The notes beneath the pieces are model-generated. The model did no database searches and was not told where the DNA came from. It worked only from the letters and a program-made list of their open reading frames with translations. Positions 39,047 through 49,448 of a stretch of DNA of 64,000 nucleotides are shown one piece after another. The position numbers and the translations under genes are program-made. The stretch comes from Candidatus Zixiibacteriota bacterium. Its GTDB lineage: Bacteria > Zixibacteria > MSB-5A5 > GN15 > PGXB01. The DNA is taken from the NCBI GenBank assembly GCA_016933955.1, contig JAFGTT010000038.1, positions 62,001-126,000 of the forward strand. The letters are read 5' to 3'. Each line of letters opens with the position of its first letter. The first letter of the stretch is position 1.

Positions 39047-40321
39047 TTATTTGACATTTTCCTTGACCCATTCGGTACTGACTGATTTCGGACGGGTGAT
39101 GGGGGTACCCATGGCCCGGTTGATAATCAACTGGGAAAGCATACCCATGGCACGGGAAACCGAGAAGAGGACCGTATAGTACGGGAACTCGGTCAAACCG
39201 AAATGGTACAGGAGGGAACCGGATCCGGCATCAACATTCGGCCACGGATTCTTGGCCTTGCCGTGTTTCTTGAGAACTTCTGGAACGACATCGTACACCC
39301 GGGCGACCGTCTGAAAGACCGGGCTGTCGGGTAAATATTCCTTGCCGAAGGCGAGGAAGGCGCTGAATCTGGGATCGGTAACGCGCAGAACGGCATGACC
39401 GTAGCCGGGTATAACTTTTCCGCTATTGAGAGTTTCCCAGGCGTATTTCTCGATCTGTTCCTCGGTCGGAGCGCCTTTGAATTTCTTCATGGTGTCAAGA
39501 ACCCAATTGAGACATTCCTGATTGGCCAGACCGTGGAGGGGGCCTGCCAGACCATTGAGACCTGCGGAAACGGCATAGTAGGAATCAGATAGGGCCGAAC
39601 CGACGGTATGGCAGGTATTGGCGCTGACGTTGCCGCCTTCATGATCGCAATGAAGGGTCAGATAAAGACGGATCAGTTTGGTGAAGACGCCGGTTTTATC
39701 CTTGATGCCGAGCATTCGGGCGTAATTGGCGCCCCAGTCGAGGTCCTTCTTGTAGGCAATCCGGTTACCTTTTTTGAAACGCAGACGGTAAACACCGGCG
39801 GCGATTCCGGGTAACTTGGCCAAAAGATTGAGAGCATCTTCCATGGTCGGTTTCCAGTATTCGTTCTTGGCCATACCCTTGTTATATTCCTTAACGAATT
39901 CAGATTCTTTCTGCATAACCAGAATACCGGTATTCAGCATGGCCATAGGATGAGAATCCTTAGGCATCGCTTCAAGGACACTCCAGACGTATTTGGGGAC
40001 GGCCGAACGGGCCGCGAGTTCCTTCTGCAGGGCGGTCAGATCCGCCTTGGCCGGAAGTTCGCCGGTACAAAGCAGGTAAAAAATTTCCTCGGGTAATTTG
40101 TCGCGCAGGTCCATAATGGGGATACCACGGATAATCAATCCCTTATCGGGATAAACCACCGAGGTGTCGCAAATCATGGCTTTCACGCCGCGCATACCGC
40201 CGTAGGCCTGCGCCACGGTGACGTCGGAGATTTTCTTGTCGCCGACCTTTTGAGCCAGATCCTTAAGATCATCACGAAGAACCGGAATCATCTTCGCGAG
40301 CTTGTTCTGTAAAGTGGCCAT
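39047..40321 (-). CDS. gltA: Citrate synthase (Si-type, mitochondrial-like)
   Basis: Condenses acetyl-CoA with oxaloacetate, entering the TCA cycle. The 424-residue protein has catalytic His in LAGPLHGLANQE, the second His in IPGYGHAVLRVTDPR and the catalytic Asp in NVDAGSGSLLYHFG. The N-terminal layout and GLANQE motif are closer to the eukaryotic/mitochondrial branch than to the E. coli hexameric type. It has its own near-consensus promoter and terminator, so it is a single-gene unit. Confidence 0.96.
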   Translation of the reverse strand: MATLQNKLAKMIPVLRDDLKDLAQKVGDKKISDVTVAQAYGGMRGVKAMICDTSVVYPDKGLIIRGIPIMDLRDKLPEEIFYLLCTGELPAKADLTALQKELAARSAVPKYVWSVLEAMPKDSHPMAMLNTGILVMQKESEFVKEYNKGMAKNEYWKPTMEDALNLLAKLPGIAAGVYRLRFKKGNRIAYKKDLDWGANYARMLGIKDKTGVFTKLIRLYLTLHCDHEGGNVSANTCHTVGSALSDSYYAVSAGLNGLAGPLHGLANQECLNWVLDTMKKFKGAPTEEQIEKYAWETLNSGKVIPGYGHAVLRVTDPRFSAFLAFGKEYLPDSPVFQTVARVYDVVPEVLKKHGKAKNPWPNVDAGSGSLLYHFGLTEFPYYTVLFSVSRAMGMLSQLIINRAMGTPITRPKSVSTEWVKENVK

Positions 40322-40525: not shown

Positions 40526-41890
40526 CTATTTGAACATTTTGCCGGGATTATACAGACCGGCCGGATCGAATGCCTCTTTGATACTTTTCATATGGTCAAT
40601 AGTGGCCCGGTCGAATTCCAGATGAAAAAAATCCTTTTTTGTCAGGCCGATTCCATGCTCGCCGGTCAGGGTGCCGCCGAGTTCCAGGGTTTTTTCGAAA
40701 AGGCTTAAAACCGCCCGATCAATCATCTCCATTACGTCAGGATCATCAGAAGAGGTCAAAAAGTTAACATGCAAATTACCGTCGCCGGCATGGCCATAGG
40801 CATTGGTTCGGATGGGATATTCCCGGCTCAGACCGGCGACGAAAGCCACCAGTTCCGAGAGACGTGAGGGCGGGACACAAACATCCTCGGCGATTTTATG
40901 CCGGGCCGATTCCTTGACAGCTTTGGAGATATTACGCCTGATTCGCCAAAGGCGCTCGGTTTGGGCCGGATCGTTTTCGCGATTCAGGTAAAGAATATTA
41001 TTTTCACGGCAGATAGACTCAATATTATCAGCCTCCGCCAGGCGTTTATTTCCTGAGGTTTCGAAAAGAAGCACAGCTCCGACTTTATTGATGGCAATGG
41101 TTTTTTCATAGGCCATGGAACAAGCTATGGCATCGCCATCCATAAACTCCATTACAGCCGGGATAATCCCCCGGCGAGTGATTTCGGCCACGGTACGGGC
41201 CGCATCGGCCGGATCGGTAAAGGCGGCCAGAATGGTCGGACCGGTTTCGGGTTGGTCGATAAGGCTGACGGCAATTTCGGTAATGGCCGCCAAAAGTCCT
41301 TCGGAACCGATCATGATGCCGGTGAGATCGAACAGGTCGCCCTTTGAGTAAAAACCGGTTGTGAGAACCGCGCCATCGGCAATAACTGCCCTGAGACCAA
41401 TAACATAGTCCTTGGTGACGCCGTATTTTTTACAGTGTAATCCGCCGGCGCATTCGGCCACATTGCCACCCAGAGTCGATTCCTCATAGCTGGCCGGATC
41501 GGGCGGGTAATATAATCCAAATCCGGCCGCCGCCTTCATCAATTCAATGGTTACCACTCCGGGACCGCAGAGAGCGATTTTATAATCGGGCAGAATTTCC
41601 AGCTTTTTCAAATTTTCCAGCGACAGCACCAGGCCGGAATGGACCGGAACGGCCCCTCCGGTATAACCGGTGCCGGCTCCGCGGAAGACAATCGGGATAT
41701 TTTTATCGCGACAGAAATTGATGATAGCTATAATTTCCGACTCGCTGTCCGGAAAAGCTATGGCCGATGCGCGGACCTTTATTTCGGAAGCATCTCGGAA
41801 ATAATCGGGATAATTATCGGTATCGAGAATAAGCCGCTCCCCAAACATATCTTTGAGAGCGGTCCATTTATCAATCGAATTATCAGTCAT
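40526..41890 (-). CDS. glcD: FAD-binding oxidase, GlcD family (2-hydroxyacid dehydrogenase subunit)
   Basis: A 454-residue FAD_binding_4 plus FAD-oxidase_C protein: RGAGTGYTGGAV near 58-70 for FAD, GHAGDGNLHVNF, and the canonical GEHGIGL motif. It is a stand-alone GlcD-type chain with no Fe-S part, unlike the fusion at 29424. The start overlaps the end of the FmdB gene by 8 bases, so translation is coupled. D-lactate, glycolate or another 2-hydroxyacid are possible substrates. Confidence 0.9.
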   Translation of the reverse strand: MTDNSIDKWTALKDMFGERLILDTDNYPDYFRDASEIKVRASAIAFPDSESEIIAIINFCRDKNIPIVFRGAGTGYTGGAVPVHSGLVLSLENLKKLEILPDYKIALCGPGVVTIELMKAAAGFGLYYPPDPASYEESTLGGNVAECAGGLHCKKYGVTKDYVIGLRAVIADGAVLTTGFYSKGDLFDLTGIMIGSEGLLAAITEIAVSLIDQPETGPTILAAFTDPADAARTVAEITRRGIIPAVMEFMDGDAIACSMAYEKTIAINKVGAVLLFETSGNKRLAEADNIESICRENNILYLNRENDPAQTERLWRIRRNISKAVKESARHKIAEDVCVPPSRLSELVAFVAGLSREYPIRTNAYGHAGDGNLHVNFLTSSDDPDVMEMIDRAVLSLFEKTLELGGTLTGEHGIGLTKKDFFHLEFDRATIDHMKSIKEAFDPAGLYNPGKMFK

Positions 41891-42164
41891 CCTTTTTAGT
41901 TACGGAAGGAGAGGATGTCGAAGCGGTATTGGACGGTTTAACCACCGGCCCCTTTTCTTTTTCAGAAGCTTTCTTATATGATTCGGAGCGGTAATCGGTC
42001 GAGTAGAAACCGGCTCCTTTGAGAAGAAAGCCAGCGCCGCCGGTGATAATTCTTTCCGTATAACCTCCGCATTCCGGACAAACCGTCACGGGATCATCCG
42101 TAATCGCCTGGAACTCTTCGAATTCATGTCCGCATTCGGTGCATTTGTATTGGTATGTCGGCAT
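41883..42164 (-). CDS. FmdB-family zinc-ribbon protein
   Basis: A 93-residue protein. The zinc ribbon typical of FmdB starts at the first residue (MPTYQYKCTECGHEFE, then CPECGG), followed by the GGAGFLLKGAGFYSTDYR motif and a low-complexity Lys/Ser/Thr tail. The start at 42164 is chosen because the ribbon begins there and a GGGGGT ribosome-binding site precedes it on the minus strand; a longer frame upstream has no homology. Family members are described as putative regulators; the role is unclear. Confidence 0.88.
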   Translation of the reverse strand: MPTYQYKCTECGHEFEEFQAITDDPVTVCPECGGYTERIITGGAGFLLKGAGFYSTDYRSESYKKASEKEKGPVVKPSNTASTSSPSVTKKDD

Positions 42165-42243
42165 TGTCAATTTACCCCCAAAAAATATAAAATCACCAAT
42201 CAGATAATTAAACAGGTAAAATCGAAAAAAGTTCGCCGGGTTA

Positions 42244-44103
42244 TCATCCGTAACGCCAGCCACGGTCACGAACCAACCTGGAATTGGGTTTCCAATCGGT
42301 TAGCTTGCCTTCGGGTTTTTGGGCCGGAGGCGGCGTGGCGGTTTTCTTAACCGGTGACATATAGACTTTGGTCTCTTTTTCCGGGGCAATCCGATATGAT
42401 TCCTCGGCGGCACTGATAATTTCGGGCAGTAATCCTTCCTCGGCGACCTTTTCGGTAAATTTCCGCCGCCCATCGGTCAGATCACGAAGATAATCGTTGA
42501 TTTGATCCTGAGAATAATAATGCTCGGGATTGAATTTGCTCAGGTCGACGCCCTCGGCCGAGTTGATGACCTCAGTACCGAAAAGGCTCTCGCGGTATTT
42601 ATTGGTTCCCCGCAGATCGCCGCGCTGAATAGCGGCCATTGTATCGATGGGCACCCGTTCCGTCTTGCGGACCATCTTTTTGCCGCCATCGGGCTGTATT
42701 TCAATTATTTCTCCCATGCCCCCGGTGTTATACTGGTAAAAAGCAACTTTGTCAGGATAATTGGAGGCCAGTTCCATTATGATCTTATAAAACATATTGA
42801 CCTTCTGGGCCCGGGAACCGACAATAAAGGGATCGGTGCCCACAGTGCGAACCGACTCACCGGCTTTGGCCGGATTGGAGGCATAACTATGACTGGATTC
42901 ACCCCACAGGTAAGCCAAAGCGGCCTGGATTGGTGACAGCCGTTGGGCGAAGGTCATAATGGTGTTCCGCCGGGTAATAAAGGCAAAAACCAATCCATCC
43001 AATTCCTCAATCGGCGGCAGATTTAATGATGGATACCAGATATCTTTCAAGGCAAAGGGCCAGTGACCGCGTTTTATCTTTAGTTGTTTGCGCATGATGA
43101 CGGCCCGACCGTTACCGCACAGGTTTTCATCGAGGAAATCGGGTTTGCCGTCGGCGTCGATCATGACGTTTTCGTACAGGGCGCTTTTATGCACCAGAGC
43201 GTTATACATTGATTCCTGCAGTCTGGCATCGACATCGGTCTTAACAAAATAATTGAACTCAGAACCGTAGGCCGAACCATCATTTTTCAAAAAGCAGATA
43301 TCATCCTGGCAAACCAGGGTTCGTTCCCCTTTTGACCAATCGAGCCCGAGCTGATGACAGGACCAGGTGCTTTTTCCCGTGGCCGAAAGGCCGAACAGAA
43401 AGACACCGTATCTTTTTAATTTGCCGCTTTTGGCATCACGAATAATAACTACCTTAGTACCGGCATGGAGACCGAGCATTCCCAGGGCACCGGCGGCATG
43501 CATCCCATTCCGCAGAAAGCCTTTTTTGTCCTCGCCCATGTAGTCGGAACCGAGGACAAGGGTAATATTATGATCGGGCAGCATCAGGACCTGCTGGCGG
43601 ATCTGGTGTTCCTCGGGGATATGAATAAGGGTGAACTCCGGACCCGGGGTTTTAGTCACCGGCCCCATAGTATGTCCCCACATATAGGCCAGACGGTAAT
43701 TTTTCAGGTCCGCGGTTGATATATAGAGGTTGCATTTGGGATTATATTCGGAATTGGAGCCCATCTGCCGCCGCAGGCGGACAATAGGCAGTGTTTCCAC
43801 CAGGTGCAGCACTTTATCCAGTTCCTCGGGAGCCTTGGCGATGATTTTCTTTTTATTATCCGAGAGATGGTATTCGCAGACGCCTTCTGAACCGAGGTAA
43901 ACCGTTTTTTCTGCAATTCGGCTGGAAACCGAGGAACGCCACCCCCAGGAGCCAAACCTTGTTTGAGTGCCGGTTTGACAAGCGGGATCACGCAGGTCAT
44001 CCAGTCGGGTATCCTGAATATTGGATCCGGGATTGTCCAGACGGCGTTTCAAATCCCGGGCGAACCGAGCATATAATCCGACATCGTAAATCGAATCAGA
44101 CAT
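42244..44103 (-). CDS. pckA: Phosphoenolpyruvate carboxykinase, ATP-type (divergent)
   Basis: Interconverts oxaloacetate and PEP with ATP. At 619 residues it is longer than typical PckA (about 530). The core is recognisable: YMGEDKKG (188-195, metal and substrate Lys), GLHAGTKV (211-218), P-loop GLSATGKST (238-246), and QDD (266-268, Mg-binding). The C-terminal extension (about 520-619) includes a Pro/Lys-rich tail. ndk ends two bases before its ATG. A divergent PEPCK-like domain sits in the fusion protein at 44545, in the same operon. Confidence 0.88.
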   Translation of the reverse strand: MSDSIYDVGLYARFARDLKRRLDNPGSNIQDTRLDDLRDPACQTGTQTRFGSWGWRSSVSSRIAEKTVYLGSEGVCEYHLSDNKKKIIAKAPEELDKVLHLVETLPIVRLRRQMGSNSEYNPKCNLYISTADLKNYRLAYMWGHTMGPVTKTPGPEFTLIHIPEEHQIRQQVLMLPDHNITLVLGSDYMGEDKKGFLRNGMHAAGALGMLGLHAGTKVVIIRDAKSGKLKRYGVFLFGLSATGKSTWSCHQLGLDWSKGERTLVCQDDICFLKNDGSAYGSEFNYFVKTDVDARLQESMYNALVHKSALYENVMIDADGKPDFLDENLCGNGRAVIMRKQLKIKRGHWPFALKDIWYPSLNLPPIEELDGLVFAFITRRNTIMTFAQRLSPIQAALAYLWGESSHSYASNPAKAGESVRTVGTDPFIVGSRAQKVNMFYKIIMELASNYPDKVAFYQYNTGGMGEIIEIQPDGGKKMVRKTERVPIDTMAAIQRGDLRGTNKYRESLFGTEVINSAEGVDLSKFNPEHYYSQDQINDYLRDLTDGRRKFTEKVAEEGLLPEIISAAEESYRIAPEKETKVYMSPVKKTATPPPAQKPEGKLTDWKPNSRLVRDRGWRYG

Positions 44104-44105
44104 GG

Positions 44106-44531
44106 TTATAAACCCTTCGCCAAAATTTCATCATTGTCGAAAAAGAATGCCACCTCGGTTTTGGCCGTGGCCTCGCTGTCGGATCCATGGACGACATTCT
44201 TTTCCACCGAGGTGCCGAATTCACGGCGGATGGTATTATATTTGGCCCGAGCCGGATCAGTGGCGCCCATTAGTTCCCGCCATTTTTCAATAGCGCCATG
44301 CCCGCCGATAACCATAACCACAATCGGGCCCGAGGTCATGAATTCCACCAGTGATTTATAAAAGGGCTTACCCTCGTGGACGGCGTAGAATTTCTCGGCC
44401 TGATCCCCGGCCAGTTTGAGGACTTTCAATCCTCGAATAATCAGACCGGAATTTTCTATTCGCTCGATTACTTTTCCGATTAACTTACGGCGGACTCCGT
44501 CCGGTTTGATGATACCCAGTGTATTGGCCAT
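44106..44531 (-). CDS. ndk: Nucleoside diphosphate kinase
   Basis: Transfers the gamma phosphate between nucleoside triphosphates; cytosolic. The 141 residues carry the catalytic NVVHGSDSEATAKTE with the phospho-histidine, the N-terminal LGIIKPDGVRR and the RPFYKSLVEFMTSGP-type substrate segment (here KPFYKSLVEFMTSGP). It lies between the aminotransferase fusion (13-base gap) and PEPCK (2-base gap), both of which use or relate to nucleotide-dependent OAA/PEP metabolism. Confidence 0.97.
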   Translation of the reverse strand: MANTLGIIKPDGVRRKLIGKVIERIENSGLIIRGLKVLKLAGDQAEKFYAVHEGKPFYKSLVEFMTSGPIVVMVIGGHGAIEKWRELMGATDPARAKYNTIRREFGTSVEKNVVHGSDSEATAKTEVAFFFDNDEILAKGL

Positions 44532-44544
44532 CTCCTGATCTCCT

Positions 44545-46887
44545 CTATATCAACTCCCGGAGACGACCTTTAAGCGTTTCCGGAGGTATTGCGGCAATAT
44601 TTACTTTATAGGCATTGGTCACCCGGAACAACTGATGGAAATTGCGACGTTGCAGATCTTCATAATCGACCGATGATCCGAGAATATACGGATTGAAGAA
44701 CGGCTGCATTTTGAAAGGAGTCATTCCTGCCCCTGACGGAGTTCGGTATTTACCCTCGGTGATCAATTCCAGGGCTTTTTCGGCGATCAGTTTTTCCACC
44801 GCCGGGGCGTTCGGTTCATAACCGAGTATGACAACAGCTTTCAGGCGTGACCGTTTGACATAACGATTAGGTCCGGCAATCCAGGCCGGATCAACCAGCG
44901 CTCTTGAATCCTTACTGCCCCAGTAGCAGTATGGTTCGCCGAGATCGAGCGGACATTCGTCACCAAGTTCCTTGAGATTGGTCCAGTCGGCCCGCCGGGT
45001 GACCACGTTTTCGCACTTACTCCTATCGAAAATTCTGGCATAGTGCGGGAATTTCTGAGCGACATCGGTTTTGAAATAGAATTTTCTCTCCGGGGCATCG
45101 GCAATGGCCTCGTTACCCCGATAGCGGACAAAGACCCAGTCATTAGATAGGAACCGAGCTTTGTCATCCTCGAGTAGTCGGACGAACAGGGAGCCGCGAC
45201 TCATTCCTTTGGGTCCTATCAGGGCCAGGCCTTTTCCACCGAAATCAAGGCAGGCGGCCCGGACACCATGAACATCGAGTAATCGCTCGCTGGCCATTGC
45301 CACCATTCCCAGGGCCAGACTGCGAACCTGGCCATAGTAGCCGGTATTGAAAAGAATGGCCGTACGCATTTCGGGGCAGTAATAACCATACGAAGTGCGA
45401 CCGGGAATGCCATCCACGGCATAGATAATACCGTGTGGTTCAACATCTGATTCCAGCGTAGCCGGGTACCAATTCTCGACCCAGAAATCATAAAGATGAG
45501 GGACATTGGTTCGCAACTGAATGATGATGCCGTTGATATTGGCATTCCATTCAAAATAGCGGTCAAACGGCAGATTGGCCTCGGCCTCTTGAACCAGAAT
45601 GTCACGCTCTTCAATTGTAACGGCCGGATTGATTTCGATATTCCCCTGCGGGTGAGTCATAACATTTTGAAGGGCCACCCGTTTATATTTGGGCGATTCG
45701 GTAAGACGAGCCATAGCCTCGATAATCCGATCAGTCCCCGCCTCGATTTTATCCATCGAGGTGGCGTAGGACAGACGGATGTTATCATCGGAACCGAAGG
45801 CACTTCCCGGTACAACGGCCACCGAGGCTTCCTTGAGCAGGTAATAACTTAAACCGTAGGAGTTGCGGATTTTCATGCCCCCGAATTCAGTATTATAGTA
45901 GGACGAGGTATTAGGGAAGAGGTAGAAAGCGCCTTCCGGTTTATGGCATGATATATTGGGGATTCGATTAAGTTTGCTCATCATATAATTTCGCCGTGTC
46001 TGGAATTCGGCCACCATGCGGTTGATTTCCGATTGATGACCTGAAAGAGCTTCAACCGCCGCCTTTTGAGCAATCGAGTTAGCGTTCGAGGTGGTATGCG
46101 ACTGAACAATACTCATGGCAGATATGATCTCGCGTGGCCCGGCGGCGTAGCCGATCCGCCATCCGGTCATGGAATAGGATTTGGAAACGCCGTCAATAAT
46201 AACGGTCTTTTCCTTTATTTTATCGCTGAGAGAGGCTACCGAGGTGAACCTGTAGCCGTCATAGATGACTTTGCCGTATATTTCATCGGCCACAATCAGT
46301 AATCCTTCGGCGGCCGCGATCTCGCAAATTTCCTGCAACTGCTCGCGGGTATAGGCCGAACCGGTGGGATTGCCGGGATTGTTAATGATAATTGCCTTGG
46401 TGTTGAAATTCAGATTGGCTTTCAGCTCCTCGGGTGTGAGACGAAAACCGTTTTCCTCACGAGTGGGAACAATCACCGGTTTGCCTTTAACCATCAGAAC
46501 CTGCTGGGGGTAGGAAACCCAGTAGGGCGCCGGGATAATGACTTCCTCATCCCGGTTGAGGATAGACATGAACAGATTATACAGGCATTGTTTGGCTCCG
46601 CTCGAGACGATTATTTCATTCCCGCTGTAATTCAGGCCATGGTCTTCTTTAAGACGCGCCCGGATGGCGGCTTTCAGTTCCGGGATACCATCGTTGGCGG
46701 TATATTTGGTAAAATTATCATCGATCGCCTTTTTGGCGGCATTTTTAATATCCGCTGGTGTCGGGAAATCGGGCTCCCCGACGGAAAAATCGATAACATC
46801 AATGCCCTCGGCTGTCATCGCCTTGGCTTTGGCATTAATCCGGAGAGTCGGGGAAAGCTCGAGGCGTCCGATTCTATTGGAAATCAT
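44545..46887 (-). CDS. Aspartate-type aminotransferase fused to a degenerate PEPCK/HprK-like domain
   Basis: A fusion of 780 residues. The first about 395 residues are a complete class I aspartate aminotransferase: NNPGNPTG (169-176), Asp201 in VADEIYG, PLP-binding Lys236 in SKSYSMTGWR, and Arg371 for the substrate carboxylate. Residues about 420-780 are a PEPCK/HprK P-loop superfamily domain in which key residues are lost: the P-loop reads IGPKGMSRGSL (557-567), with Arg564 where Lys should be, and the PEPCK YMGEDKK equivalent is YYGQVRS (517-523). A FYFKTDV segment near 603-609 parallels NYFVKTDV in the neighbouring PEPCK. It probably makes oxaloacetate from aspartate; the second domain may be regulatory. 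An HprK-like origin is the alternative. Confidence 0.82.
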   Translation of the reverse strand: MISNRIGRLELSPTLRINAKAKAMTAEGIDVIDFSVGEPDFPTPADIKNAAKKAIDDNFTKYTANDGIPELKAAIRARLKEDHGLNYSGNEIIVSSGAKQCLYNLFMSILNRDEEVIIPAPYWVSYPQQVLMVKGKPVIVPTREENGFRLTPEELKANLNFNTKAIIINNPGNPTGSAYTREQLQEICEIAAAEGLLIVADEIYGKVIYDGYRFTSVASLSDKIKEKTVIIDGVSKSYSMTGWRIGYAAGPREIISAMSIVQSHTTSNANSIAQKAAVEALSGHQSEINRMVAEFQTRRNYMMSKLNRIPNISCHKPEGAFYLFPNTSSYYNTEFGGMKIRNSYGLSYYLLKEASVAVVPGSAFGSDDNIRLSYATSMDKIEAGTDRIIEAMARLTESPKYKRVALQNVMTHPQGNIEINPAVTIEERDILVQEAEANLPFDRYFEWNANINGIIIQLRTNVPHLYDFWVENWYPATLESDVEPHGIIYAVDGIPGRTSYGYYCPEMRTAILFNTGYYGQVRSLALGMVAMASERLLDVHGVRAACLDFGGKGLALIGPKGMSRGSLFVRLLEDDKARFLSNDWVFVRYRGNEAIADAPERKFYFKTDVAQKFPHYARIFDRSKCENVVTRRADWTNLKELGDECPLDLGEPYCYWGSKDSRALVDPAWIAGPNRYVKRSRLKAVVILGYEPNAPAVEKLIAEKALELITEGKYRTPSGAGMTPFKMQPFFNPYILGSSVDYEDLQRRNFHQLFRVTNAYKVNIAAIPPETLKGRLRELI

Positions 46888-46897
46888 CGCTTACCCC

Positions 46898-48304
46898 TTA
46901 TTTCTGACCATCTGCCGAAGACGATTTTTTCGGAGTCTCGGTCGAGCCTTCCTTCTTTTTGTCGCCCAGCTTCCGGAGCCAGTCTTCCAGGTCGAAACCC
47001 GAGAGTGACTTTACAACCATCGGCAACTGCGACATCATCGAAGCCACCTCGCCGGTGATTTTGGAGGTACCCATTTTACCGTCATTGGAGACCATGACGA
47101 TTTTGTCGATTTTAGACAGCGGCGCGGCCATTTCACGGGCCAGTTCGGGCAGTCGTTCGATAATCATCTGCAGAACGGCCGGTTGCGAATAGGCATTCCA
47201 TGATTCGGCTTTGAGGCGCATGGCCTTGGCCTCGGCCTGACCGACTTTTTCAACCAGTTCGGCTTCTATCAAACCCTGGAGCCGTTTGGCCTCAGCCATA
47301 CCTTTGGCCTCGGCTTCCAGCCGGAATCGTTCGGCCTCGGCCGGTTTTCGGACTTTGGCCTCGAGTTCCTGTTCGACCCGGTCAATTTCCTTTTTCTCCA
47401 GGGCAATGGCGGAATCTTTCTCGATAATTTTAATTTTGGATTCTTCGGTTTTAAGCTCCTGAGTCAGTTTGTTGCGTTGCAGTTCATAAGCAAAATCAGC
47501 ATCAGCTTTCTTGAAATTCAATTCCTTCTGTAATTCGGCGCGTTTCAAATCGAATGACTGGCCGGCCTTGGCCACTTCAGTGTCGGCCTGAATCTTGGCG
47601 ATATCTCCCTCTTTTTTGGCAACGGCCGATTTTATAATGGCATCGCGGGCCGCTTCCGCTTCGGCCACCTCGGCATCACGCCGGGCCTGGACGATTTTCG
47701 GTTTTCCGAGAGCTTCAAGATAACCCGACGGATCGGTAATTTCCTTGAGGTTGAAGGATAAAAGCTTCAGCCCCATATTGGTAAAGTAATCATTGACATC
47801 ATCAAAGACGGCGCGGGCAAAATCCTTGCGGTTTTTGTTGATCGATTCCAGAGGCATCGTCCCAATCAAAGCGCGGGTCGAACCTTCCAGCGTCCGCAGG
47901 GCCACATCGCGAATTTCCGAGACAGGCATACCCAGAAATTGTTCAGCGGCGAGATGGATCGAAGCCTCGTCACCGGCAATTTTGACTTCCGCCGTTCCTT
48001 TAACGGTGGATCGGATCCCATTGGTCGAGATAGCGTCATCCACCTTTATTTCCATAGGGATGATTTCCAGGGGAAGAACCTGCGCCTGTTCGATAAACGG
48101 TTTGACAAAGGTTCCGCCACCGATACGAATCCGATAACCCACCTGGCGTGAAGTGCCATCGGGCAACTTGATCGTCCGTTTCCTGCCCCCCGAAATAATT
48201 AGCACTTCACTGGGGCCGACTTTTCGATAGTTTTTGAAGACGATAAAAATGATCGCCGCTATAATAACAACGGCCACGATAATGATAATTAAGAGGGAAC
48301 TCAC
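46898..48304 (-). CDS. Flotillin-like SPFH/Band 7 membrane protein
   Basis: A 468-residue membrane scaffold protein. A single N-terminal membrane helix (residues 3-24, Ile/Val-rich) precedes a Band 7/SPFH domain (about 28-215) and a long Glu/Ala/Lys-rich coiled coil (about 215-370) of the flotillin type (AEAEAARDAIIKSAVAKKEGD style repeats), with a Ser/Lys tail. It resembles FloT/YuaG. It lies 10 bases before the aminotransferase fusion and 130 bases after pta. Membrane microdomain organisation is the likely role. Confidence 0.92.
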   Translation of the reverse strand: MSSLLIIIIVAVVIIAAIIFIVFKNYRKVGPSEVLIISGGRKRTIKLPDGTSRQVGYRIRIGGGTFVKPFIEQAQVLPLEIIPMEIKVDDAISTNGIRSTVKGTAEVKIAGDEASIHLAAEQFLGMPVSEIRDVALRTLEGSTRALIGTMPLESINKNRKDFARAVFDDVNDYFTNMGLKLLSFNLKEITDPSGYLEALGKPKIVQARRDAEVAEAEAARDAIIKSAVAKKEGDIAKIQADTEVAKAGQSFDLKRAELQKELNFKKADADFAYELQRNKLTQELKTEESKIKIIEKDSAIALEKKEIDRVEQELEAKVRKPAEAERFRLEAEAKGMAEAKRLQGLIEAELVEKVGQAEAKAMRLKAESWNAYSQPAVLQMIIERLPELAREMAAPLSKIDKIVMVSNDGKMGTSKITGEVASMMSQLPMVVKSLSGFDLEDWLRKLGDKKKEGSTETPKKSSSADGQK

Positions 48305-48434: not shown

Positions 48435-49448
48435 TTATTTCATCAGCATAGCTATGGCGGTAACATCGACAATATCCCTTGCCGAACACCCGCGTGACAG
48501 ATCGTTCATCGGCAACCGCAGACCCTGGACAATCGGTCCGGTGGCACTGGCTTTGGCCAATCTCTGGGTCAATTTATAGGCAATATTGCCGGCATCGAGA
48601 TCGGGGAAAATCAAAACATTGGCGTCCCCCTGGATCACCGATCCGGGCGCCTTTTTCACCGCCACCTCGGGAACAATGGCGGCATCAACCTGAAGTTCTC
48701 CATCGACTTTCAGCTCCGGATGCTCTTTTTTAATAATGGCCAGAGCCTTCAGGACTTTGTCCACATCAGGGTGGCTGGCCGAGCCCTTGGTTGAAAACGA
48801 CAGCATGGCCACTTTCGGTTCCTCGCCGACAAGGTTTTTCATCGTTCTGGCGGTCGATACGGCTATCGAGGCCAGCTGTTCGGCATTGGGATTAGGCACC
48901 ACGGCTCCATCGGCATAGAGAAACACCTTGTTAACCTGGCCGCGATACTCGGGAACGGTCATCATAAAGGCCCCCGACACGGTTTTTATTCCCGGAGCCA
49001 GACCGATTACCTGGATAGCGGCCCGCATCACATCGCCGGTGGTATTTACGGCCCCGCAGACACAGCCATCAGCCAGATTCTTGTGCACCATCATAGCACC
49101 AAAATGGAGAACCTGTTTCATGGCCTCGGAGGCCTGGTCTTTGGTGATTCCTTTATGCTGGCGGAGTTTGAAAAACTCCTCGGTGAAACCATCATGCAGA
49201 TCGGAATCGGCTGGATCAATTACCGTGACTGAACCGAGATTCAAACCATGCTCTTTGGCCAGCTTCCCGATTTCGTTTTTATCGCCAAGAATGATAACGC
49301 CCGCGATTTTCTCATCAATAATTTCTTTCGCGGCCAGGATGGTTCGCGCATCGGTTCCTTCGGGCAAAACCACCTTTCTGTTCTTGGCATGGGCCTTGGC
49401 CCGGATGGAATCCAGGATGTTGATGGCTTTTTCTTTTTTATCAGACAT
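48435..49448 (-). CDS. pta: Phosphate acetyltransferase
   Basis: Interconverts acetyl-CoA and acetyl phosphate, connecting PFOR to acetate formation. The 337-residue chain is the short Pta type without N-terminal DRTGG domains, with [12 protein letters not shown] at the start, [20 protein letters not shown], and [11 protein letters not shown] near 218. Length matches the family. It is downstream of prfB (46-base gap). No acetate kinase is in the window. Confidence 0.95.

Follow-up and report, generated by a model that had tools for sequence, protein, structure and literature searches.

An aspartate aminotransferase fused to a most likely inactive PEPCK-like domain in a conserved flotillin-associated gene cassette

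The fusion gene and its neighbours

The window analysed here is a stretch of 64,000 nucleotides from a Candidatus Zixiibacteriota genome (3.38 Mb, 97% complete), numbered from its first letter. Its minus strand carries an open reading frame (44545-46887) that encodes 780 amino acids in a single uninterrupted frame and joins an aminotransferase to a PEPCK-like domain. In the reading direction the genes at this locus are pta, SPFH/flotillin, the fusion, nucleoside diphosphate kinase (NDK), PckB, a zinc-ribbon protein, a FAD-linked oxidase and citrate synthase, with gaps of only 10, 13 and 2 bp within the cassette. The flotillin/SPFH protein (46898..48304, minus strand, 468 aa; Pfam Band_7 76.8 bits, Flot 41.1 bits) is encoded 10 bp upstream of the fusion, and the NDK gene (44106..44531, minus strand; Pfam NDK, E 5e-54) begins 13 bp downstream of it. 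The upstream border of the cassette is formed by the phosphotransacetylase gene pta (48435..49448, minus strand; Pfam PTA_PTB) and the downstream border by the genes for the zinc-ribbon protein and the GlcD-like FAD-linked oxidase (40526..42269, minus strand; Pfam assignments), which are followed by citrate synthase (39047-40321). The GTG start listed for the zinc-ribbon frame (41883-42269) overlaps the end of the PckB gene by 26 bp; translation of this frame probably starts at a later ATG.

PckB (42244..44103, minus strand, 619 aa) is a divergent ATP-PEPCK. It scores 94.7 bits against Pfam PEPCK_ATP (cut-off 26.5) and 290 bits, below the cut-off of 369, against NCBIfam NF006821. Its structural model (pLDDT 73) shows the fold of PEPCK at full length (461 residues aligned, Z 25.6) and the active-site motifs are intact (Y188xGE.K193K194, H213, GLSATGKST, D267D268 and R333), with invariant columns at K193, K194, H213, K244, D267, D268 and R333. 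A preliminary description of this DNA placed the fusion in an operon with pckA (at 42244) and ndk. An NDK gene and a PEPCK gene are indeed present, but the latter encodes the divergent PckB and not the ordinary PckA of the genome, an identity that is ruled out by an ordinary ATP-PEPCK gene located outside the cassette (G000:C14:67801-69192, 530 aa, 728 bits). Because this ordinary enzyme is also encoded, PckB is possibly not the main PEPCK of the organism. In three cassette-bearing relatives (G036, G037 and G038) PckB is the only PEPCK_ATP match.

The aminotransferase half and the distribution of the fusion

Residues 1-395 (45703..46887, minus strand) form a complete class I, fold-type I aminotransferase domain, as the preliminary description had proposed on the basis of Lys236 and Arg371. 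This region matches Pfam Aminotran_1_2 (PF00155) with an E-value of 9.2e-75 over 359 positions, and its top NCBIfam models are aspartate transaminases, although the scores stay below the equivalog cut-offs (NF004769, 434 bits against 617). The PLP-binding Lys236, Arg244 and the substrate-binding Arg371 are all intact, and both Lys236 and Arg371 are invariant in 50/50 fused homologues. From these residues we infer a working aspartate aminotransferase (AspAT). It is the sole close AspAT of the genome, the next best candidate showing 28% identity.

The fusion is a real and conserved gene. Following the suggestion that other genomes be searched for it, we found more than 50 fused loci of near-constant protein length in Zixibacteria, Calditrichota, Ignavibacteria and Aminicenantes. 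Repeated occurrence of both the fusion and its gene order in several phyla shows that the arrangement is not a chance event, and a sequencing or frame-shift artefact is ruled out by the matching length of the homologues. One apparently unfused representative (L052) is a gene truncated by a contig end. Two fused genes on contigs labelled Thermoplasmatota and Clostridiales (L047 and L046, respectively) nest within the Aminicenantes branch of the tree, and these contigs are probably mis-binned.

Fold and relatives of the second half

Residues 394-780 (44548..45708, minus strand) gave no significant match to Pfam, but a scan of bacterial genomes with this region recovered 78 loci. The best PDB matches to a profile of 47 second-half sequences were HprK structures, at a weak E-value of 0.002, and some of the unfused members match a PEPCK model with an E-value of about 1e-12. 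Profile-profile comparison with PckB by hhalign gave a probability of 95.9% (E 5e-9). An AlphaFold2 model of the domain (pLDDT 85.9, pTM 0.86) has the PEPCK fold and finds its best structural matches among ATP-PEPCKs, in particular the Thermus thermophilus enzyme 2pc9 (Z 27.4, rmsd 2.9 over 339 residues), on which residues 11-387 of the model superpose with residues 38-452 of the chain. Judged from this model, the second half is a truncated ATP-PEPCK fold from which both ends of the enzyme are absent. In comparison with ATP-PEPCKs (PF01293, including 2pc9 and the Escherichia coli enzyme 1ayl), the domain shares the motif order YxG..K, His, P-loop, Asp-Asp, ENV and Arg, but it lacks about 37 N-terminal and about 75 C-terminal residues, has most of its catalytic positions replaced (see below) and is fused to AspAT.

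The preliminary description had labelled residues from about 420 to 780 as PEPCK/HprK-like, and this label is fair because HPr kinase and PEPCK belong to one kinase group (PMC1079889). The compact P-loop region of HprK (TIGR00679) and of HprK-related kinases A and B, with its S-I/L-H-G ... G..G.GK pattern, is recognisable in unfused relatives of the domain. However, the similarity to HprK at the sequence level covers only some 60 residues, the P-loop and the His are lost in the window protein, and the alignment with PEPCK extends across both lobes. The modelled fold is closer to PEPCK than to HprK. An unrelated C-terminal fold, which had been named as the outcome that would overturn the assignment, is ruled out by the alignment to PckB and the structural match to PEPCK.

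It is unlikely that the domain arose as a copy of PckB, to which it is only remotely similar, as it groups with a family of stand-alone proteins (36-48% identity). Those of about 357 aa, which occur in Myxococcota-type Deltaproteobacteria, Nitrospirota and Planctomycetota (e.g. L055, L060 and L072), have the same length as the domain and are 36-42% identical across the whole of it; unlike the fusion, these proteins are unfused, retain intact catalytic motifs (18/18) and have other gene neighbours. In Myxococcota-type genomes, for example, the intact gene (L055 5995-7068, and also L053 and L060) is found downstream of guaB-guaA and adjoins an SppA-like gene, and the gene context of the stand-alone relatives gave no clue to function. 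Other PEPCK-like genes were encountered in the search. Zixibacteria of family f7, whose genomes have no PEPCK_ATP match, encode a PEPCK/HprK-like protein of 574-578 aa (L082 1642-3378 and L083 1420-3144, both on the minus strand) with all motifs intact (SYYGQLKSW, HSIHGAC, APTGTGKST and HSDDW), while families f12 and f13 (G102-G106; L091 2-1801, plus strand) encode another PEPCK-like protein of about 600 aa with distant similarity to PckB (55-64 bits).

Loss of catalytic residues

Residue conservation was counted in an alignment of 53 fused and 18 unfused sequences, the former comprising 20 from the clade of the window protein and 33 others. We refer to PEPCK residues (Lys212, Lys213, His232 and Asp268/269) by the E. 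coli numbering. The position of Lys212 is Lys in 18/18 unfused and Arg in 53/53 fused sequences (Arg522 in the window protein), and the His that serves as a metal ligand in PEPCK and corresponds to the HprK His shows the same pattern, being His in 18/18 unfused and Arg in 53/53 fused sequences (Arg543). The equivalent of Lys213 in the window protein is S523, so that residues 517-523 read YYGQVRS. The first residue of the Asp-Asp pair is Asp in 18/18 unfused and mostly Asn in fused sequences (N582-D583 in the window protein). The P-loop of the window protein reads GPKGMSRGS in place of GxxGxGK(T/S), with Arg564 and Gly565 at the positions of the Lys and the Ser/Thr. Both of these replacements are found in 20/20 members of the window clade, whereas the Lys and Ser/Thr are retained in 18/18 unfused sequences and in 33/33 fused sequences outside this clade. 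Arg662, equivalent to R333, is retained in 20/20 members of the window clade. The Arg564 substitution and the altered YYGQVRS motif thus stand exactly as the preliminary description gave them. Activity as an HPr kinase is equally unsupported, as the active P-loop and the catalytic His are both lost to Arg, and the domain scores 14 against NCBIfam HprK_rel_B (cut-off 200).

Taken from the residues, the PEPCK-like domain of the window protein is most likely catalytically dead. The fused and unfused sequences are split in the tree with support of 100/98, and the 20 sequences of the window clade group together with support of 100/100. Inactivation appears to have been stepwise, the Lys and the His having been lost in every fused form and the P-loop later in the window clade, because the 18 unfused relatives retain all of these residues. 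The preliminary description held that homologues with an intact P-loop would count against its reading; such homologues do exist (the 18 unfused and 33 other fused sequences), but their P-loop looks ancestral and does not speak against inactivity in the window protein. In the other fused lineages, retention of the P-loop Lys and Thr/Ser means that nucleotide binding may survive.

The domain nevertheless has the marks of a pseudoenzyme that is maintained by selection, since it is homologous to enzymes, catalytic residues that are intact in 18/18 unfused sequences have been replaced in 53/53 fused ones, and the domain is still constrained. Against its nearest relative it shows 84.7% identity with a dN of 0.097 and a dS of 1.6, giving a dN/dS of about 0.06, a rough value as dS is near saturation. 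Across fused and unfused forms 27 columns are invariant. The invariance of the two replacement Arg residues favours re-use of the site over random decay, and we suggest that they may form a re-used anion-binding pocket.

Linkage and co-occurrence

At all loci where the sequence extends far enough (50/50, from several phyla), the flotillin gene is the immediate upstream neighbour of the fusion. PckB follows in most fused loci, and NDK occupies the same position at the Zixibacteria loci of the window clade. Flotillin is not simply a generic neighbour, as looser relatives of it in G021, G024 and G098 adjoin other genes.

We compared 110 Zixibacteria genomes with a completeness of at least 80%. 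The fusion is present in 37 of them, matches in G024 and G025 having been removed from this count as they represent a different homologue of 575 aa. PckB occurs in 35/37 of the fusion genomes and in 0/73 of the others (Fisher 1e-26, a P value that overstates independence because the genomes are related). PckB and the fusion are unlinked in 8 genomes, so plain linkage does not explain their association. A high-scoring flotillin subfamily is likewise found only in fusion genomes (35/37). Two Zixibacteria (G112 and G114) possess the fusion without PckB, and six Aminicenantes-type genomes (Saccharicenans and relatives) encode flotillin and the fusion but neither PckB nor any PEPCK_ATP match. These latter genomes indicate that flotillin and the fusion constitute the invariant core, to which PckB is usually added as a third component.

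Replacement of an ordinary AspAT-PEPCK pair

Genomes of the same family that lack the cassette encode an unfused AspAT of 405 aa, about 35% identical to the fused AspAT, and directly after it an ordinary PEPCK whose motifs are intact. The two arrangements occupy the same position: the locus reads prfB-pta-[AspAT-PEPCK]-ZnR-glcD-citrate synthase in these relatives and prfB-pta-[SPFH-fusion-NDK-PckB]-ZnR-glcD-citrate synthase in cassette-bearing genomes. The ordinary operon (e.g. L092 5944-8816), from which the same two reactions are expected, thus consists of two separate ordinary enzymes and is without flotillin, NDK and the dead domain. The ordinary AspAT occurs in 48/110 Zixibacteria genomes, adjoining PEPCK in 43/48, and in 0/37 fusion genomes, so that the two are never found together (Fisher 6e-13, again among related genomes). 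Both states occur within each of five families (f1, f2, f3, f9 and f10), which suggests several swaps.

The cassette is probably an in-place substitute for the ordinary pair, and its replacement of that pair at the same locus, the strongest piece of evidence on this point, strongly suggests a role in the conversion of aspartate to oxaloacetate to PEP, the route that the preliminary description had proposed for these proteins.

Possible function of the inactive domain

The fusion, the fold, the residue losses, the gene module and the locus swap are computed results, and the explanation of them that we favour, with reasonable though not strong confidence, is that a working AspAT carries a dead PEPCK domain as a non-catalytic sensing or docking part within a cassette that performs the steps from aspartate to PEP. 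The catalysis of these two steps, ligand binding, docking and flotillin anchoring are deduced from those results. The dead domain would most likely have begun as a separate PEPCK-like protein whose site was intact and which was later fused to the aminotransferase, after which the catalytic Lys and His would have become two Arg residues in every lineage, with loss of the P-loop added in the window clade. The fused aminotransferase would convert aspartate to oxaloacetate and PckB would convert oxaloacetate to PEP, with NDK likely to supply NTP or to balance nucleotides. The old active-site cleft, with its two invariant Arg residues, may bind a carboxylate or phosphate metabolite (oxaloacetate, PEP or similar), and/or the domain may dock partners such as PckB and flotillin. 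Consumption of oxaloacetate, an unstable intermediate, would thereby be matched to need.

A narrower alternative is that the dead domain binds PckB as a pseudo-subunit, so that the AspAT and PEPCK sites adjoin and oxaloacetate is handed over. The restriction of PckB to fusion genomes, even where the genes are unlinked, is consistent with such channelling, as is the adjacency of AspAT and PEPCK genes in relatives. The domain groups, however, with a separate stand-alone family and not with PckB, and the existence of fusions without PckB means that the domain must act without it in some genomes. Docking to PEPCK, which the preliminary description had suggested, is therefore plausible but not the only role of the domain, and as a full account we consider it doubtful. 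For the same reason we rank metabolite sensing or flotillin binding equal to PckB docking. If the domain instead binds the flotillin/SPFH protein, AspAT (with PckB) would be placed at membrane microdomains and the link to PckB would be secondary. This would account for the flotillin gene being upstream of every suitable fused locus, including those without PckB, and for the flotillin subfamily confined to fusion genomes, but operon closeness is by itself no proof of contact and there is no evident reason to hold a soluble AspAT at the membrane; we regard this reading as rather unlikely.

It is improbable that the domain is an enzyme with altered chemistry, for example a phosphotransferase acting through Asp583 and the Arg residues, or an ATP-dependent enzyme where the Lys and Thr are kept. 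Retention of the P-loop residues outside the window clade and of Arg662 within it would fit such an activity, but in the window clade the P-loop Lys and Ser/Thr are gone together with the His, the first Asp and the equivalent of Lys212. Still less can be said for a decaying relic of the fusion event, kept just for folding of the aminotransferase: the catalytic residues are gone, as this would predict, but strong purifying selection, near-constant length in more than 50 loci, the invariant columns and the two invariant new Arg residues make it highly improbable. Returning to the favoured sensing or docking part, its most elaborate form would be a membrane metabolon for the route from aspartate to PEP, in which flotillin is the anchor and the dead domain senses oxaloacetate or PEP and recruits a dependent PckB, replacing the free pair of enzymes found in close relatives. 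This combination is speculative and we think it unlikely as a whole. If it holds, no pseudo-PEPCK acting as a regulator or scaffold was known before, to our knowledge.

Significance

Pseudoenzymes that act as regulators or scaffolds resemble the domain in that their fold is conserved although catalytic residues are lost, and in that a functional relative is encoded close by. A pseudoenzyme fused to a pathway neighbour is of a known kind, but the fusion of AspAT to a dead PEPCK domain is apparently undescribed: a literature search, in an incomplete library, found no PEPCK pseudoenzyme, AspAT fusion of this kind or cassette like the present one. The family offers an inactivation series that leads from intact stand-alone proteins through fused forms with two Arg replacements to fused forms in which the P-loop is lost too. 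The locus itself represents a natural experiment, since in closely related bacteria one and the same chromosomal position encodes either a pair of ordinary enzymes or a fused, part-dead version with extra components. This swap makes it possible to test what an inactivated domain contributes when the intermediate of a metabolic step, here oxaloacetate, is both scarce and unstable.
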